This document shows, piece by piece, positions 471 to 62,112 of a DNA stretch of 64,000 nt. Both the position numbers and the translations under genes were made by a program. This DNA is from an endosymbiont of Galathealinum brachiosum. GTDB lineage: Bacteria; Pseudomonadota; Gammaproteobacteria; SZUA-229. How positions within the stretch are numbered: the stretch's first letter is position 1; each line of letters opens with the position of its first letter. The notes under the pieces were generated by a model. That model saw only the letters and a list, made by a program, of their open reading frames with translations, ran no database searches and was not told where the DNA came from. The stretch lies in contig QFXC01000007.1 of assembly GCA_003349885.1 (NCBI GenBank), positions 11,475 through 75,474 of the forward strand. The letters run 5' to 3'.

Positions 471-854
471 TATAAAATCCTAAATGTTAGTTGTGTTCGT
501 GAAATTAAAGAAACTGTTGTTTCAAGTAAATATATTTTTGTTGTAAAAGCCCGTATCTACCATCTTGTGACTTTTTAAATGAGTCATGCCGCGGAGAAAC
601 TTCACATATCCAGAATCGTCACTTTAAAGCGCACTTTAAATGCCCCTGCTAATCTGACGTTTTGTGGATAGAACTAGCGCAAACTTTATACCAGCCCTGA
701 AAGCACCGTGTCAATGGCTTTTAGCAAATATAGGCTTAAATCAATCAATTAATTTTCTGTCAAGTATAAAAACCCAGCTTTTGTCTGAAAATTGATAAAA
801 AAATTTGATAATTAACTTTATAAGAAGATAAAAATATTTGTTTATTCGAAATAA
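471..854. other. hupB upstream region, no gene seen
   Basis: This AT-rich stretch contains no ORF with coding character. It must hold the hupB promoter (minus strand). I see a GAAAC/GTTTC dyad at about 507-521, but no promoter hexamer pair good enough to call. Confidence 0.5.
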
Positions 855-37627: not shown

Positions 37628-38635
37628 ATGAAATTGAAAGGTAGCATTGATAGAGACAAGCAGGGAGTGGTAAAGCCATTACAGCTTCTTGCGTCTTCAT
37701 TATTGTTATATATCTTAAGTTTACTGTTTCTGATAATTCCAGCTGATACTTATGCATCTACTGAAGATAAAAAAATACTCATCGTTTACCAGAAAGCTCA
37801 TGGTTTCAGTCAGCAGCTAATCGATTACATACAAGAAGATGTTTCAGCTAAAGGTTTTCAGGTTAATCATTTAATAATAAAACCGCAGCTTGAAACCGGA
37901 CGGCTTAACCGGATAAAAATTAATCAACACCAGCTACTAATCTCTATAGGTAGTAATACAACAAAAAAACTTCTCGAAGCAGAAATCAATAAACCGATCT
38001 TAAGCGCTCTGGTACCACGCCATATTGCTAACTCACTAAAAGAGGCTTATCCCGAAAAGAAAAACTGGAGCAGCCTTCTTATCGACCAGCCAGTTGAGCG
38101 GCAATTTCATTTAATAAGCGCTATTTTCGGCCCACATAAAAACACGGGCATTCTCGTAGGCCCCTACACTGACGACCTGAAAAAGGCACTAACAAAAGCC
38201 TCAACCAAGTTAGAGCAACATATACAAACTGATAAGATTGAAAGTTCAGATCAATTATCTGCGTCACTAAAAGCTTTAAGTTATTCAGTAGATTTATTAC
38301 TTACGCTTCCTGACCCGGTTATTTATAACAAAAGCACTATTCGTGGAATCCTGCTACTGGCCTACCGTAACAAACTACCCATTATCGGTTTTTCTCAGGC
38401 TTATGTTAAAGCCGGGGCTATTGCAGCCATTTACTCAAAACCAGAACAGGTAAGCAATCAGTTAACCAACATCATTGAATATTTTTTTACTAAACACTCA
38501 TTTGAACAACCTGTTTATTACCCCGAAAAATTCTCAGTTGCATTAAATAAAAATATTGCACGCTCGCTGGGCATTAAGCTGGCAACAAAAAAATCCATAC
38601 TTGATCAGATAATTAAAGCTGAGAAGAACAAATGA
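37628..38635 (+). CDS. Periplasmic binding protein (ABC_sub_bind-like)
   Basis: A 335-residue protein with an N-terminal hydrophobic signal ([25 protein letters not shown]). The fold pattern fits the ABC_sub_bind family (PF04392 type): two lobes with [81 protein letters not shown], and [13 protein letters not shown]. No ABC permease or ATPase is adjacent. It overlaps the kinase start by 4 nt (ATGA), so it is cotranslated, which suggests it is a ligand-sensing partner rather than a transporter component. Confidence 0.82.
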
Positions 38636-41394
38636 GAAACTGGGGCATCAATAAACGGGTCATGTTTTTAGCATTGTTACCCACATTGCTAATTACAGTA
38701 TCACTTGCATCCTATTTTAGCTTTAATCGTTATGCATATATTGAAGAATCACTACATATTAAAGGACAGCTAATAGCTGACAACCTGTCTCCGGCAAGTG
38801 AGTATGGTGTATTTGCGGGCAACCTTGAAATACTTGAAAACCTGATAAACAATACATTGCAGGAAAGTGATGTTACAAACATCACTATTAGCAACCGATA
38901 CAATGAAGTACTCATCAGCCGTACACGTAAAATAACCCCCCCTGAAACCATACTGCCTGTATTTATATCACCGAGAGAATTTACATACACCGCAAGCATT
39001 GTGGGCAGCGATGTTAATCTTTCTGATTACAATGAGCTCTTTACAGAAGATGAATCAGAAGCCACAGCACCTAATAATCTGGGTTATGTACATGTCACTT
39101 TAAGTGATCAGTCTACTCAGGTTCAGCAAGTTGATAGTTTAATAAAAGGTTTTCTTATTACGTTCTCCGGTTTATTTATAACCGTATTCCTGGCCATCAG
39201 TATCAGTCGCAGTGTTGTAAGCCCCATTCAACGGTTAACCGACGCCGTGAAGAAAATTGGACAGGGAGAATTAAATACCCGTATTAAGATAGATACAGGT
39301 GGCGAAATTGGCTCACTTGAAGAAGGTGTAAATAAGATGGCCAGTGAAATGCAACTTATCCGCTCAGATTTACAAAGTCAGGTTAATAATGCCACCGCTG
39401 ATTTAAAGAAAACCCTGGAAGAACTTGAAATTCAAAATATTGAAATAGATCTTGCACGAAATCAGGCTTTATCAGCCAGTAAAATAAAATCTGAATTTCT
39501 TGCCAATATGAGTCATGAAATTCGTACCCCTATGAACGGTGTAATAGGTTTTACAGAATTACTCGGAAAAACGTCTTTGTCCGATGAACAGGATGATTAT
39601 GTAAACACCATACGCAGCTCAGCTAGTAATTTATTAACTATCATTAATGATATTCTTGATTTTTCTAAAATTGAATCAGGAAAGCTCAATATTGAAAACA
39701 TTAATTTCAGCTTAGATGATGTAATGGATGAAATCATAACCATGTTTGCTCCCATGGCTTACCAGAAAAACGTAGAACTAATATACCACCCATCAGTAAA
39801 GCTACCTGAAACTATTCTGGGCGATCCTTCGCGTATTCGACAAATATTAATTAACCTGATAAGTAACGCGGTAAAATTCACTCAAAATGGTCACGTTATT
39901 ATTCGTGTTTTAGTTGAGACTCAACCCAATGAAAATGAGCTTATTCGGTTTACAGTAACCGATACCGGCATGGGGATGGATGACTTAAGTAAACAGCGTT
40001 TATTTACCGCTTTCACTCAGGGCGACACTTCTATTAGTCGAAACTTTGGTGGCACGGGACTAGGGCTTGTAATATCACGAAAACTTGCCGAATTAATGAA
40101 CGGTGAAATTGGTTTTGAAAGCAACTTGAATAAAGGTTCCAGTTTCTGGTTTACTGTACCTCTATCCTCAAATCCACAGCGTAGCTCATCAACTGAAGAA
40201 TCAACAAGGCTTAAAGTCATTTTATTTGAATCCGTAGACCAAAATAGAATTGCTAGTCGCTCCTTACTTAATAGCATGGGTATTGACACTATTGAAACAG
40301 GCCGTTTAGATAAATTACCACAACTGGTAGATGCGGACACTGAACATGAACTTGCTGGCATAGTAGCCGGAATCAGTCGAGTTAATATAAAAAATAATTT
40401 TATGTTGGGCAATCTAGCAAACGCATTACAGTCAACCGGCCTTCCCTACATTACCCTGGCCAGCATATTTGATGTAAATGATGCGCAGGATTTAACAAGC
40501 GCAGGTCTTAAGAACATTATTTATCGCTGTTCTAGAACAAGTCTGCTTAAAAATCAGATTTTCACCTCATTCAGTTCGGACAAGGAAGATACCATTATGC
40601 CATCTGAGAAAATATCAGAAGCAATTGATAAAAAACAGTTATCTCATATTAAAGTATTACTAGTCGATGATAACAAAATAAACCTTAAACTGGCTAAAAC
40701 ACTTCTCGTAATGCATGGTATTCAGGTCATTACAGCCGAAGATGGACAGGAAGCGGTAGAGCAAGCATCCAGACAACATTTTCATTTAATATTTATGGAT
40801 TTACACATGCCGAAATTAAATGGTTTTAGTGCTGCTAAATATATACGTAATACCGATAACCCATGCAAAGAAACAACTATTGTCGCTTTAACTGCTAATG
40901 CGATGCCTGAAGAACAGTTACAGGTTTTTGATTCTGGTATGAATGATATTTTACTTAAACCTATAACTGAACAGCAATTATTTGATGTATTCTCACGCTG
41001 GGTGAACACAGAAAAACATGAAGAAAAAGCGACTGATACCCCTGTTATAACAGATGACATATTTGATAAACAGTTAGGAATACAATTGGCGGGGGGCAAT
41101 GAACAACTCGCTGATGAGTTATTTCCAATGTTAATTAGCGAATTACCGATACACAGGGAAAATTTACTCGCCGCCAGACAAAATAATGATACCGATGATT
41201 TAAAAAAGCATATTCATAAATTACATGGCGGCACAAAATATTGTGGAGTGCCTGCGTTATTAGCATCTTCAGCAAATTTTGAAAATATTATTGATTTAAA
41301 AGAACATAAAAAAATTGATAATGGACTTGATAATGTAATTACTTCAATTGATGAGTTACTTGAGTTCTATCAGAATAATTTTCATACACAATAG
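38632..41394 (+). CDS. BarA/GacS-like hybrid sensor histidine kinase
   Basis: A 920-residue tripartite kinase, the length of E. coli BarA. Order: TM1 (10-30), periplasmic region to about 165, TM2 (172-192), HAMP, coiled coil, HisKA with phospho-His295 ([13 protein letters not shown]), HATPase with [10 protein letters not shown] and [10 protein letters not shown], a degenerate receiver (about 530-640), a true receiver with VLLVDDN and phospho-Asp723 ([11 protein letters not shown]), and an HPt domain with His862 (HKLHGG). The architecture and rlmD-cysM-pdxJ context match the global BarA/GacS regulator that phosphorylates UvrY/GacA. Cotranscription with a receptor and binding protein is unusual. 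Confidence 0.9.
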
Positions 41395-41700: not shown

Positions 41701-42441
41701 TCAAAAACGTGCTTCCAGCATCAACTGCTTCATATTACTCACAGCTGACTGCAAACCACAAAATACGGCTTCTGCAATAATTGCATGACCTATATTTAAT
41801 TCCTGAATATGTGGTATTGAAGCGATTGCCTGTACATTATGATAGTGCAAACCATGACCTGCATTTACCTGTAAGCCCAGGTCATGAGCAACTTCTACAG
41901 CTTCAATTATTTTTTTGAGCTGTTTTAACTCTTCATCATTACTTGTTGCATCTGCAAAATGCCCGGTATGAATTTCAATTACCGGTGCCCCACATCGTTT
42001 TGCTGCTTCAATCTGGCTCAGGTCAGCATCAATAAATAAAGAAACCCGGACATCAGCTTCTGCTAATTGCTGACAGGCTTCCTTAATACGACTTTCCTGA
42101 CTGACCACATCCAGACCACCTTCCGTTGTCAGTTCTTCTCTACTTTCAGGTACAAGACAACAATCTCTTGGTTTAATTTTTTCAGCAAAACTCAGCATTT
42201 CTCCGGTAACAGCCATTTCAAGATTCATATGAGTTAAAAGTGAATCTTTCAACATCAGTACATCACTTTCCTGTATGTGTCTACGATCTTCACGAAGATG
42301 AAGCGTTATTGAGTCTGCTCCCGCCTGCTCTGCCTGTAATGCAGCATGCACCGGATTAGGGTAACGTGTACCCCTTGCCTGTCTTAAAGTAGCGACGTGG
42401 TCAATATTTACACCCAGTAAAATTGTGCTTGAATCTGGCAT
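41701..42441 (-). CDS. pdxJ: Pyridoxine 5'-phosphate synthase
   Basis: A 246-residue TIM-barrel enzyme condensing 1-deoxyxylulose 5-phosphate with 3-amino-2-oxopropyl phosphate to PNP. Conserved: [101 protein letters not shown] and [14 protein letters not shown]. Together with pdxH it supplies the DXP-dependent B6 route. It is convergent with the BarA-like kinase and divergent from the cyclase. Confidence 0.97.
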
Positions 42442-42634: not shown

Positions 42635-44854
42635 GTGTTTAAACAGAGGATTTTTAGATACAGTCTGGGTTTACTTATTACCTTTATTCTCTTTGCAAAT
42701 GCCAGTGGTATTATTCCCCTTCGATTTGTTGAAACAATGGAAAATCTTTCATACGATTTTCGACTACAGCTTTCACTCCCATCAGAAATTGATAAAAAAG
42801 TCATCATTATTGATATAGATGAAAAAAGCCTTGCAGAAATTGGGCAATGGCCATGGGAGCGAAATGTACTAGGTAATATCGTTAATAACCTGTTCGATTA
42901 TTACAATATAAATGTACTTGGCTTCGATATTCTATTTGCTGAAAAAGATGAAGACCCGAGTGATAAAATTCTTTCACAACTATCAAATAGCACTATTTCA
43001 AGCAGTGCAGATTTTCAGCGTATTATTAATAATAATCAGGACATTATGCACCGCGATGAAAGCCTTGCCAAAAGCCTTGAGAGCAATAATACCGTATTAG
43101 GGATAATTTTTAATAATCATGCTAAACACCTGACTAAAGGTTTATTACCTCCTTCTATCCCTCAGTTCACCCCTGAAATTATTAAGAGCTTTGATTTTTT
43201 AGACCCTTCAGGTTATACCGCTAATATTGACACATTACAAAAGCAGGCGACCTCAGGTGGTTTTTTTGATAACCCTTTAATTGATGAAGACGGTGTATTT
43301 AGACGTGTTCCATTATTACAGTCATATGATGGAAAGTTATACCCTTCTTTAGCACTGGAAATCACACGTCTTTCATTACAGAACAATATTTTAAAACTCG
43401 GTTATGGCTCAAGCGATGAATTTGAAGGCAGTAAGTCTCTGGAATGGGTATATGTCGGTGAAATAGCTATCCCTGTTGATGAGCATTCTGCCGTGATGGT
43501 GCCCTATGTCGGAAAACAAAAAACTTTTGATTATATTTCAGCCGCTGACATTTTAAATAAATCAATTGCTCGAAATTTACTAAAAGACAAAATTGCGATT
43601 TTTGGTACCAGTGCTGCCGGTTTACTTGACCTCAGAACAACACCTCTTGAATCTGCTTATCCTGGTGTGGAAGTTCACGCTAATATAATTCAGGGTATTT
43701 TAGATCAGACCATAAAACACAAACCAGAATATATGATTGGTTTTGAAATTCTTCTGCTTTTCTTACTGGGAATTATATTAACTATCGCATTACCCATGTT
43801 ATCACCCGCCTGGAGCACATTTAGTGCAGCGTTAACAATTGGCGTTATTCTGCTACTGGATAATTACGCCTGGAACCAGCTAATGGTTATTATGCCAATA
43901 GCCTCACCGCTCATTCTAGTTATTATGCTATACATGATGAATATGTCATATGGTTTCTTTGTAGAATCAAGGGGCAAACGCCAGCTTACTCATCTTTTCG
44001 GACAGTATGTACCGCCCGATCTTGTTGATGAAATGAGTCGCAATCTTAAAGAAATTAATCTGGATGGTGAAGTTAGGAAGATGACCGTACTTTTTACCGA
44101 TGTACGTGGTTTCACAAGTATTTCAGAAAAAATGCAACCTAAAGAGCTCACTACCTTTATTAACGCATTCCTGACACCGCTCACCGAAGTTATTCACACT
44201 AACAGGGGCACCATCGATAAGTATATGGGTGATGCCATTATGGCTTTCTGGGGGGCACCATTAAAAGATCCGCAACATGCAAGAAATGCGTTGAATGCTG
44301 GTATGGATATGCTGGTTGCAATAAATAAACTGAACAAACATTTTAAATCAAAGGGCCAGCCAGAAATAAAAATCGGTATCGGTATCAATACAGGTGATAT
44401 GAACGTTGGTAATAAAGGCTCAGAGTTCCGGGTTGACTATACCGTTCTAGGAGACTCCGTAAATCTGGGGTCACGCCTGGAAGGGCTGACAAAAAATTAT
44501 GGTGTCGACTTTATTGTTAATGAGTCAACACGTCACGAGGTTCCCGAGTTTGAATATCGTATGCTGGATATTGTAAAAGTAAAAGGCAAGGATAAACCAG
44601 TTACTATTTTTGAACCGGTAGGTTTAGTTGAAAATGTAGACAAACTGGTGCGTAAACAAATTAAAGAATTTCACCATGCTCTCAAACTATACAAACAACA
44701 GAACTGGGACGGTGCTGAACAGTCACTATTTCAGTTAAGTCAGCAGGAACCTGACAGAATGATTTATAAGATTTATCTGGATAGAATCGCTGTTTTCCGC
44801 GCAAATCCACCTGAAACTAACTGGGATGGTGTGTATACCCACACAAGTAAGTAA
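42635..44854 (+). CDS. CHASE2-domain class III adenylate cyclase
   Basis: A 739-residue membrane enzyme. N-terminal TM (7-29), a large extracytoplasmic CHASE2 sensor (about 35-360, with VIIIDIDEKSLAEIGQWPW and GVEVHANIIQGIL), three TMs (about 368-440), then a class III cyclase domain. Metal-binding Asp489 (LFTDVRGFTS) and Asp533 (DKYMGDAIMAFWG) are present; Lys529 and Thr603 (DYTVLGDSVN) specify ATP, and Asn610/Arg614 are the transition-state residues. So it should make cAMP. The C-terminal 70 residues form a helical tail. GTG start with an AGGGG ribosome-binding site. The HD-domain gene follows after 208 nt. Confidence 0.92.
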   Translation: MFKQRIFRYSLGLLITFILFANASGIIPLRFVETMENLSYDFRLQLSLPSEIDKKVIIIDIDEKSLAEIGQWPWERNVLGNIVNNLFDYYNINVLGFDILFAEKDEDPSDKILSQLSNSTISSSADFQRIINNNQDIMHRDESLAKSLESNNTVLGIIFNNHAKHLTKGLLPPSIPQFTPEIIKSFDFLDPSGYTANIDTLQKQATSGGFFDNPLIDEDGVFRRVPLLQSYDGKLYPSLALEITRLSLQNNILKLGYGSSDEFEGSKSLEWVYVGEIAIPVDEHSAVMVPYVGKQKTFDYISAADILNKSIARNLLKDKIAIFGTSAAGLLDLRTTPLESAYPGVEVHANIIQGILDQTIKHKPEYMIGFEILLLFLLGIILTIALPMLSPAWSTFSAALTIGVILLLDNYAWNQLMVIMPIASPLILVIMLYMMNMSYGFFVESRGKRQLTHLFGQYVPPDLVDEMSRNLKEINLDGEVRKMTVLFTDVRGFTSISEKMQPKELTTFINAFLTPLTEVIHTNRGTIDKYMGDAIMAFWGAPLKDPQHARNALNAGMDMLVAINKLNKHFKSKGQPEIKIGIGINTGDMNVGNKGSEFRVDYTVLGDSVNLGSRLEGLTKNYGVDFIVNESTRHEVPEFEYRMLDIVKVKGKDKPVTIFEPVGLVENVDKLVRKQIKEFHHALKLYKQQNWDGAEQSLFQLSQQEPDRMIYKIYLDRIAVFRANPPETNWDGVYTHTSK

Positions 44855-44859
44855 AGCTT

Positions 44860-44900
44860 ATCTAACTAAAGTAAGCTCGGATTAGCTCACTTTGGTAGAT
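44860..44900 (+). terminator. Possible terminator after the cyclase gene
   Basis: An imperfect 17-bp hairpin, ATCTAACTAAAGTAAGCT against AGCTCACTTTGGTAGAT with a 6-nt loop, lies just past the stop. There is no strong T run (TCTATATATT follows), so termination is plausible but weak. Confidence 0.4.
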
Positions 44901-44977
44901 TCTATATATTAAAAAATAAGCACTATTTCACATATTTCGTGATTTTCTCGTATATTTCCGTTTGTCGCTAAACTGAG

Positions 44978-45020
44978 TGTGATAAATCTCACAGATATTA
45001 TACCAGTCTATTTGTAGGAT
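44978..45020 (+). promoter_or_regulatory. Perfect CRP-type operator with class II promoter
   Basis: TGTGA-TAAATC-TCACA at 44978-44993 is a perfect CRP/Vfr half-site dyad. Its centre (44985.5) lies 41.5 nt upstream of a TSS predicted at 45027 from the -10-like TAGGAT (45015-45020), the classic class II activation geometry. The HD-domain ATG is at 45063. The -10 is not strong, so the operator is better supported than the exact TSS. Confidence 0.75.
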
Positions 45021-45062
45021 TAATCTTACAAAAAGCTAATTGACTAATAACACTCTCTATTT

Positions 45063-46016
45063 ATGAACTCACGTCACTCACAATACGATGTAACCAATAC
45101 AGTAAAAGTCACAGACAGTCAGGCTGTGTGTAATGCGGTGTGTGATATTTTTCATAGTTGTTATCTGGCTGCGGATGATAGCCGTATACGTCAGGCTTTT
45201 GAAGACTTTGATAGTTTATTCGAAGGACATTACAACGGTTTCAACGCCTGTGATACTTTCTACCACGACAAACAGCACACCCTTGATATGACCCTTGCCC
45301 TGGCCAGATTGATTGATGGCCATGAAAGACAAAGTGACCGGGTACATACCTTCGGAGCTAAACTAACCAGTCTGGCGATTATAACCGCTCTATTTCATGA
45401 CTCGGGTTATATACGTAAAACAGATGATCAGAAATTTTATAATGGCGCCCAGTACACGCCTATTCATGTAAGCCGAAGCGCTACTTTTCTAACTAATTAT
45501 CTACATATGATCGGTTTGCCTGAATTTGCTGATATTGCAGCGAATATGGTGCATTACACAGGTTACGAGGTATCGCCCGATCAAATTAAATTACCTGATG
45601 AAAAACTACACTTACTAGGTTATATGCTTGGAACTGCAGATCTCATTGCTCAAATGTCAGACCGCTGTTATCTGGAAAAATGTAAAGAGAGACTGTTTCC
45701 AGAGTTTGAACTTGGAGGCATGACATCAACACAGGATAAAGATGGTAAGTCGATTATTATATTTGAATCTGCAGATGACCTTTTAGCCAAAACACCCACT
45801 TTTTATAATTCTGAAGTTAAAAACCGACTGAATAATTTATTCCAGCAGGTGTATAAATATGCCGAAGCTCATTTTGGTGATGATAATTTATATATAAAAT
45901 ATCTGAATAAAAATATAAGCCATATAGAGTCTCTTATCGAAACCAACAAGCTGGATACACTACACCGGTTACCTCCAGAAAACCCGGGAACCAGTCGTTT
46001 TTTAAATTCTCATTAA
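45063..46016 (+). CDS. HD-domain phosphohydrolase with PDE-like motifs (candidate cyclic nucleotide phosphodiesterase)
   Basis: A 317-residue cytosolic protein. Metal-binding HD residues are in order: His68/His72 (FYHDKQHTLDM), His112-Asp113 (ALFHDSGY), His135, His164 and Asp193 (GTADLIAQMSD). YHDKQHTLDM resembles the YHNxxHAxDV signature of class I cyclic nucleotide phosphodiesterases. There is no HD-GYP signature. It sits directly downstream of an adenylate cyclase and behind a perfect CRP box, so hydrolysis of cAMP is a reasonable inference; another nucleotide is possible. A weak hairpin terminator follows at 46089-46123. Confidence 0.8.
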   Translation: MNSRHSQYDVTNTVKVTDSQAVCNAVCDIFHSCYLAADDSRIRQAFEDFDSLFEGHYNGFNACDTFYHDKQHTLDMTLALARLIDGHERQSDRVHTFGAKLTSLAIITALFHDSGYIRKTDDQKFYNGAQYTPIHVSRSATFLTNYLHMIGLPEFADIAANMVHYTGYEVSPDQIKLPDEKLHLLGYMLGTADLIAQMSDRCYLEKCKERLFPEFELGGMTSTQDKDGKSIIIFESADDLLAKTPTFYNSEVKNRLNNLFQQVYKYAEAHFGDDNLYIKYLNKNISHIESLIETNKLDTLHRLPPENPGTSRFLNSH

Positions 46017-60447: not shown

Positions 60448-62112
60448 ATGCAATTAGAAGGCTATTCCAATCTTACCAAGTTTGCCACCGGTGGCATGGC
60501 TGCCGTATATAAAGCTCGCCAGCTGTCATTAAATCGCACTGTCGCCATAAAATTTCTGTCTGCAGAACATTTATGGGATGAAGAGGCCAAGGCATTATTC
60601 GATCAGGAATCACTGGTTATTGCCCAGTTAAATCACCCTAATATCATCCATATTATTGATCGCGGCTTAAATGAGAAAGGTCGCCCCTATTTTGTTATGG
60701 ACTATATACAGGGCAGTGATTTATCTCAGGTCATGCATCAGGAGAAACTAACCCTCAACAGCAAAATAAATCTACTGATACAAATATGCAAAGGTATGGC
60801 AACAGCACATAAAAATGGTGTTATTCACCGTGATATCAAACCTTCAAATTTTGTCGTAGATACAGAAAACCATTTACATATATTAGACTTTGGGATTGCC
60901 TGGATAGCAGCCAGCGGAAAACCGGAAAACATTGTTGGCACACCTGACTACATGTCTCCAGAGCAGTTCACAAACCCCGAGTCAGTTACACAACTGAGTG
61001 ATATATATTCACTCGGTGTCATTATGTATGAGATGTTTTTTGGCACATTGCCACCCGGGAGCCCGGATAAACTAACAACCAGTCTGAGCAACCTGCCCGA
61101 CACGTTAGCACAACTGATTGCTCAGTGCCTTGAAACCAACCCGCAAAAACGCCCAGCGACTGCCGATGAAATTCGTCTTCGATTATTAAAGGTAACAAAA
61201 GGTGCACACCTCAATCAAAATCAGAAATCAGAAGCCGACAAAGCAATAAACAATACTGACAATAAATTTTCATTATTAGATATTATTAAAAAAAATGAAT
61301 TTGGAGCAGTCTATTTATTTGAAGACCTGAGTAGACACAACCTTCTCGTAATAAAAAAACGCACAAAATCTGTTGCCGGATATAATGAAGCGAAAGCACT
61401 CAGCACACATAGCCATGAAAATATCATTAAAATATATGGCACATCAAAAAGCAAACAAACCTTTATCATAGTTATGGAGCATCTTTCGAATGGAAGCCTT
61501 CAGGACAGACTGGTTAGAAAATTTAGTTTAAATAAATTTATTCCCGTAGCTGAGTCTATTTGCAAAGCATTACAGTTTTCTCATAATGAAAACATAACTC
61601 ACGGAAATTTACGCCCTAGCAATATTCTCTACAGCAACAAAAACCATATAAAAATTTCTGATTTCGGTTTAGATGAACATTACGCCACAACTGGAAGCAG
61701 TAATGACTGGTACCAACCAAATGACCGGGGTGGCTCATCAAAAACCCGGGACATGTATAGTGCCGGTGCTATTTTTTACCGCATGCTCACAGGAAAACCA
61801 GTTAAATTTTCAAACAAACGCATACAAAATACTGAAGAATTTGATGGGCTGAATAAAGCCATTAAAAATATTTTACGAAATTTAATGGAAGAAGACACAT
61901 CTAATCATTACCAGTCATTTGATCAGGTTTTACCTGACCTGAATAAACTGAGACAATATGTTAGAACGGACATAGTTACAAAACCTGACTGGTTTAAAAA
62001 AATACTACGAATACTTGGGATACTACTGCTGTTCAATAGTGTGATTTTAGCAATTTATCTTTATTTCAACCCTCAACTGCTTGATGATCTTAGAACGTTT
62101 ATTGGTTTATAA
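60448..62112 (+). CDS. Membrane-anchored Ser/Thr protein kinase with tandem pseudokinase domain
   Basis: A 554-residue protein. Domain 1 (about 5-250) is a Hanks-type kinase with all key residues: glycine loop FATGGMAAVY, Lys35, Glu54, HRDIKPSN (Asp129), DFG (Asp147) and GTPDYMSPEQ. Domain 2 (about 272-500) keeps a lysine (VIKK, residues 303-304) and DFG (405-407) but has HGN (385-387) in place of HRD, so the catalytic base is lost: a pseudokinase. One TM helix (about 518-540) near the C-terminus leaves only about 14 residues outside, so it is tail-anchored with no sensor domain. Neighbours give no clear substrate. Confidence 0.88.
   Translation: MQLEGYSNLTKFATGGMAAVYKARQLSLNRTVAIKFLSAEHLWDEEAKALFDQESLVIAQLNHPNIIHIIDRGLNEKGRPYFVMDYIQGSDLSQVMHQEKLTLNSKINLLIQICKGMATAHKNGVIHRDIKPSNFVVDTENHLHILDFGIAWIAASGKPENIVGTPDYMSPEQFTNPESVTQLSDIYSLGVIMYEMFFGTLPPGSPDKLTTSLSNLPDTLAQLIAQCLETNPQKRPATADEIRLRLLKVTKGAHLNQNQKSEADKAINNTDNKFSLLDIIKKNEFGAVYLFEDLSRHNLLVIKKRTKSVAGYNEAKALSTHSHENIIKIYGTSKSKQTFIIVMEHLSNGSLQDRLVRKFSLNKFIPVAESICKALQFSHNENITHGNLRPSNILYSNKNHIKISDFGLDEHYATTGSSNDWYQPNDRGGSSKTRDMYSAGAIFYRMLTGKPVKFSNKRIQNTEEFDGLNKAIKNILRNLMEEDTSNHYQSFDQVLPDLNKLRQYVRTDIVTKPDWFKKILRILGILLLFNSVILAIYLYFNPQLLDDLRTFIGL

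Follow-up and report, generated by a model that had tools for sequence, protein, structure and literature searches.

Class I phosphodiesterases (PDEs; PF00233), among them PDE1-11, trypanosome PDEB1 and RhoPDE, share a fold known for 3',5'-cyclic nucleotides, and both they and the nucleotide cyclases that carry a CHASE2 sensor are kinds of protein already known. We describe here a locus that appears to bring the two together. It lies in the window, by which we mean the whole stretch of 64,000 nucleotides analysed, from contig QFXC01000007.1 of an endosymbiont of Galathealinum brachiosum, and consists of a CHASE2 class III cyclase gene followed by a gene for an HD protein (Table 1). A comparable arrangement has been described at the cyaD1 locus of Sinorhizobium meliloti, where SpdA acts on 2',3'-cyclic nucleoside monophosphates (cNMPs) and has no activity on 3',5'-cyclic AMP (cAMP) (PMC4222275). 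As in the window, a PDE-type gene shares its locus with a CHASE2 class III cyclase; however, SpdA is a class III metallophosphoesterase, whereas the window encodes an HD protein with a predicted class I PDE fold. CpdA, the class III cAMP phosphodiesterase, would do the same job that we propose for the HD protein, ending a cAMP signal, but it belongs to an unrelated family. Judging from the modelled fold and the conserved pairing, we consider it fairly probable that the HD protein belongs to a branch of the class I PDE superfamily found in bacteria, and that by hydrolyzing cAMP it would terminate signalling from the neighbouring cyclase. A single signal is probably turned on by one member of the pair and off by the other.

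Full-length homologues of both proteins were found at 37-90% identity, and both are therefore real, conserved genes. The cyclase matches the CHASE2 profile well above cutoff (PF05226, residues 25-381; 189.9 bits, E = 7.7e-56, Pfam cutoff 26.3) on the N-terminal side of its transmembrane (TM) segments, which identifies the sensor, and its catalytic domain matches Guanylate_cyc (PF00211; 77.5 bits, E = 1.3e-21, Pfam cutoff 21.9). A preliminary description of this DNA, made from the letters alone, had placed a cyclase with all six class III residues for ATP behind a CHASE2 domain. This is borne out, as D489, K529, D533, T603, N610 and R614 are present and are invariant in 18 of 18 aligned cyclases. 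Together with the profile match, the two metal-binding aspartates, the ATP-type Lys/Thr pair, the asparagine and the arginine assign the protein to class III, and the solved structures nearest to the catalytic domain are bacterial adenylate and guanylate cyclases. Identity across homologues is 0.70-0.95 in the catalytic domain and 0.44-0.85 in CHASE2, the lower conservation expected for a sensor whose input changes.

The preliminary description was also right that the next gene encodes an HD protein with a YHDKQH motif, which we locate at Y67, H68, D69, K70, Q71 and H72. In an alignment of 20 relatives Y67, H68, D69, H72, the H112-D113 pair and D193 are invariant. Further invariant residues are H135, R138, Q197, D200, Y203, E214 and F247. 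Adding a sister family (35 sequences in all) leaves H68, H72, H112, D113 and D193 invariant. The Y-H-x3-H motif and HD metal site of class I PDEs recur in the window's protein, and since the aligned PDE stretch spans Y-H-N/D-x-x-H through HD, the acid and metal ligands of PDEs have their counterparts in H68, H72, H112 and D113. D193, also invariant, is likely the last metal ligand; no conserved glutamine was matched with certainty to the PDE nucleotide-pocket glutamine, the structural alignment not being resolved to single residues. Other HD assignments were rejected: a cyclic di-GMP phosphodiesterase of the HD-GYP type, because the protein reads HDSGYIRKTD with the GYP motif absent and has no HD-GYP match in Pfam or NCBIfam, and a (p)ppGpp hydrolase or dNTPase, neither of which has profile support in those databases.

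The predicted fold of the HD protein points to the same superfamily. An AlphaFold2 model built from the 20 relatives had a mean predicted local distance difference test score (pLDDT) of 91.6 and a predicted template modelling score of 0.92. All of the top 50 Foldseek matches in the Protein Data Bank (PDB), with other folds possible lower down, were class I PDEs (PDE10A, PDE1B, PDE2A, PDE4D), at probability 1.00 and a best E of 1.3e-3. VIA structural alignment likewise listed class I PDEs exclusively, at Z ~17: PDE10A aligned over 239 residues (Z 17.4, root-mean-square deviation 3.4) and the choanoflagellate RhoPDE at Z 16.8, above the Z of ~13 that the tool gives as common among unrelated helical folds. 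These structural matches cover residues 5-301, that is, the whole chain, so that the predicted model has the class I PDE catalytic fold throughout.

The HD protein has a relative, though not a fellow member, in NCBIfam NF045583 (46.8 bits, E = 2.2e-12; cutoff 400), a family named Npun_R2479 family HD metalloprotein with no stated function. Aligned by hhalign, the two families match at 99.3% (E = 1.9e-20). They have the invariant residues and the predicted fold in common; NF045583 differs in forming a separate clade in the tree (100/100), in being shorter and in its loop after the HD motif. A separately made NF045583 model (pLDDT 92.7) also has the class I PDE fold (Z 17.5), and in its Foldseek list SAMHD1, dGTPase and cyanamide hydratase reach TMq values of 0.25-0.36 against 0.45-0.60 for PDEs. 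The sister family also offers a route to PDEs through sequence. For an NF045583-type profile searched against all PDB sequences, the best matches were class I PDEs (best E = 0.015); a profile of the combined set had 56 matches, 55 of them class I PDEs, with trypanosome PDEB1 first (E = 0.042). Pfam PDEase_I is matched by 10 of the 35 superfamily members (best 2.4e-5), and of the four PDEase_I matches in 369 genomes of the class, three belong to NF045583-type proteins. Searches of the open-access literature, to which our reading was confined with subscription papers outside its scope, found neither a bacterial class I PDE of this HD-protein kind nor NF045583 by name. Within the literature searched, what appears to be new is the combination of a stand-alone bacterial protein of predicted class I PDE fold, its place in a family with no function assigned to it and its conserved pairing with a cyclase.

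The pairing is conserved. Among 37 genomes of the window's family, 23 have both genes, three the cyclase alone, one the HD gene alone (at a contig edge) and 10 neither (Fisher P = 8e-6, uncorrected for kinship). Each of the 23 family loci for which upstream sequence exists has the cyclase directly upstream of the HD gene and in the same orientation, an adjacency far above chance, and the gap measures 14-366 bp in 24 relatives (median ~154). Even in a genome of another family (L099) the order histidine kinase-pdxJ-cyclase-HD is found, with a gap of 21 bp. Downstream synteny decays while the pair persists. Losses are also shared: in L132 both genes are cleanly gone while the histidine kinase and pdxJ are retained, and in L133 only a 145-aa remnant of the cyclase is left and the HD gene is gone. 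In the tree all paired HD proteins group in a single clade (support 92/86), from which it follows that the pairing originated once and has been retained; a history of many independent origins was rejected on the same ground. Absence of the pairing from relatives had been named in the preliminary description as evidence against its proposal; the pairing is present in the window's family and missing from most of the distant HD relatives.

More widely, the HD family is strong in 17 of the 369 genomes of the class, and a class III cyclase is present in all 17, against 221 of the 352 others (P = 5e-4, uncorrected). The contexts of unpaired HD genes are suggestive of cyclic-nucleotide signalling. 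In f10 genomes the HD gene follows genes for cNMP-binding, PP2C-like and FHA proteins; in two loci (L092, 8007-12410; L096) it ends a row of cNMP-binding/rhodanese, PP2C-like and FHA genes. In a 592-aa relative (L147:1282-3057; also L171:7848-9623), a PDE-like HD domain is fused at its C-terminal side to a GAF domain (GAF_2 3e-16, PDEase_I 0.0021). GAF is a partner domain in several eukaryotic PDEs, which have the same domain pair in the reverse order. In another lineage, a compact cluster (L170:6441-8907; also L143) holds a Ras-like GTPase, a class III cyclase and, convergent with the cyclase at a distance of 45 bp, a sister-family HD gene. One copy of the HD gene (L109:7890-8423) encodes 177 aa with residues 57-226, the entire catalytic core, deleted in frame; the genomes listed as having a class III cyclase do not include the one that carries this copy. 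A plasmid-borne origin was rejected, as there was a single weak plasmid match (27% identity, Microvirga).

The window's own genome encodes five class III cyclases and has 23 cNMP-binding matches. No CpdA-type PDE was found in it, the best match reaching 23.9 bits against a cutoff of 225, and the reading of CpdA as its cAMP phosphodiesterase was rejected. In the mechanism we propose, the CHASE2 cyclase would sense a periplasmic cue and make cAMP in the cytosol, where the soluble HD protein encoded downstream, a class I PDE superfamily member in the wide sense, would bind a metal pair through H72, H112, D113 and D193, with H68 as the likely general acid. The substrate of the HD protein would be a 3',5'-cyclic nucleotide, with cAMP the likeliest, and the product the 5'-monophosphate; this hydrolysis may set the basal level and the decay of a signal to which the many cNMP-binding proteins of the cell respond.

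Several findings weigh against this proposal. A hidden Markov model search against PDEase_I and HD, suggested in the preliminary description, gave sub-threshold results at most: in Pfam the 317-aa protein has nothing above threshold, with HD sub-threshold at 0.081 and no match to PDEase_I, and neither the protein (phmmer) nor its own family profile (hmmsearch) has any match among PDB sequences. The connection to PDEs depends on the predicted fold and on the sister family, and Foldseek E-values for the window's model exceed 0.001. Unlike the class I PDEs, with which it shares ~13% identity, the HD protein is a stand-alone bacterial protein. It also lacks their signature HDxxHxGxxN (PROSITE PS00126); where that signature would stand, from residue 112, it reads HDSGYIRKTDDQ. 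The class I motif has been given as H-x3-H followed by D/E 25-35 residues on (PMC4222275), and although H68-x3-H72 is present and invariant, the H72-D113 spacing is 40 residues. The match thus ends at HD, with the signature replaced and the spacing outside the range, and by strict criteria the protein is not filed as a member of the class I PDE family; we think it most likely works like one nonetheless. The pairing, moreover, is a single event and not many independent ones, and it is not strict: intact cyclases stand without an HD gene in L124 and L125, and in a third f1 genome, L126, whose contig ends 833 bp past the cyclase, no HD gene was found. The HD gene is found without the cyclase orthologue in f10, f18, f7 and f182 genomes, and with these exceptions on both sides an obligate partnership with the CHASE2 cyclase is ruled out. 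Distant HD relatives mostly lie away from any cyclase, a CpdA-like protein accompanies ten of them, and the window-family relatives without the HD gene are without CpdA as well, so a cAMP phosphodiesterase is not obligatory in this family.

Several readings compete with this proposal. One, which we regard as rather unlikely, is that the HD protein, although of the same fold, hydrolyzes a different substrate (cGMP, a 2',3'-cNMP or some further nucleotide, cyclic or linear) and is linked to the cyclase by shared regulation only. The active-site loop, HDSGY where true class I PDEs have HDxDH, would fit such a shift, as would the limited reach of the PDEase_I matches of the sister sequences, which extend over no more than roughly the first 46 positions of the profile; the scarcity of cyclases near distant relatives and the precedent of SpdA, a 2',3'-cNMP enzyme at a CHASE2 cyclase locus (PMC4222275), lean the same way. 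Yet the ATP-type Lys/Thr pair in all 18 partner cyclases favours cAMP over cGMP, and class III cyclases occur in every strong-HD genome. The fold itself, as a matter of general knowledge, is that of enzymes for 3',5'-cyclic nucleotides. Alternatively, the protein might bind the signal or the cyclase without degrading anything, as a receptor or regulatory subunit built on a PDE-like fold. Residues outside the PDE-like metal site that are likewise invariant, or almost so (H135, R138, Q197, D200, Y203, K206), and the copy in L109, whose reading frame stayed open after the core was lost, would suit a binding role, but the invariance of the putative metal and acid residues H68, H72, H112, D113 and D193 in both families is what an enzyme would be expected to show, and we hold this explanation to be improbable.

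The pair could also be a by-product of inherited synteny, the HD protein being an unrelated housekeeping phosphohydrolase in a histidine kinase-pdxJ-cyclase-HD block. That the kinase and pdxJ are conserved alongside, that the pairing has a single origin and that the cyclase stays in three relatives without a detected HD gene are all compatible with this. We nevertheless judge it very improbable: the flanking genes outlasted the joint loss of cyclase and HD in L132, the cyclase decayed in L133 where HD is gone, the pair outlives the synteny downstream of it, and the fold predicted is that of cyclic nucleotide PDEs. A PDE opposing its cyclase remains our preferred reading. Opposing activities on cAMP had been proposed in the preliminary description from motif and adjacency; the fold, the sister-family profiles and the co-retention of the genes strengthen that proposal. 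The genes, their residues, the modelled fold and the conserved pairing and joint loss we regard as shown, while metal binding, catalysis, the substrate and the direction of the effect, and with them the activity on cAMP, we still infer.

Table 1. Features of the cyclase-HD locus and its conserved flanks (window positions unless residues are given).
Feature	Position	Strand	Remarks
ABC-type substrate-binding partner of hybrid histidine kinase	37628-38635		conserved flank
Hybrid histidine kinase (sCache_4-HAMP-HisKA-HATPase-REC-Hpt)	38632-41394	+	Pfam, synteny; conserved flank
pdxJ	41701-42441	-	divergent neighbour; conserved upstream flank of cyclase-HD pair
CHASE2-domain class III (adenylate-type) nucleotide cyclase	42635-44854	+	GTG start, 739 aa
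Cyclase domains	residues ~9-32; 25-381; ~363-440; ~476-660		N-terminal TM; extracytoplasmic CHASE2; TM segments; cytosolic catalytic domain (TM segments placed by hydropathy)
Intergenic gap cyclase/HD	44855-45062	+	208 bp, flanking genes co-directional
PDE-like HD protein	45063-46016	+	ATG start, 317 aa, all-helical

Between the two genes, no terminator-like site was seen on the + strand of the gap, and a single promoter-like site (44927-44956) is not above chance. Although pdxJ is a conserved neighbour, we do not count it as belonging to the system, because L132 retains the histidine kinase and pdxJ without the cyclase and HD genes. In L124 (5497-8248), L125 and L126, pdxJ was not found, and an acpS-like gene stands between the kinase and the cyclase instead. 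In two further loci (L129, L131) the CHASE2 cyclase orthologue adjoins FHA-like, PP2C-like and CHASE2-bearing kinase-like genes. A stand-alone Ser/Thr protein kinase elsewhere in the window (60448-62112; Pkinase 1.2e-79) resembles these last.

Many bacteria have several class III cyclases and no recognised enzyme that removes their product. If the HD family is a cAMP phosphodiesterase, this gap would be filled for part of the Pseudomonadota, a family whose name so far says no more than HD metalloprotein would gain a function, and the PDEs that are drug targets in eukaryotes would have a bacterial relative. As the genes form a conserved pair, the question is directly testable with two purified proteins. 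A broader proposal, which we regard as evenly balanced, is that the class I, mammalian-type PDEs have a prokaryotic branch, so far unrecognised, in Gammaproteobacteria and other Pseudomonadota, whose members are in some cases paired with a cyclase or fused to GAF. Where CpdA is lacking, such a branch might be a main means of ending cAMP signals, and it might also be the source, or a sister, of the PDEs of eukaryotes.

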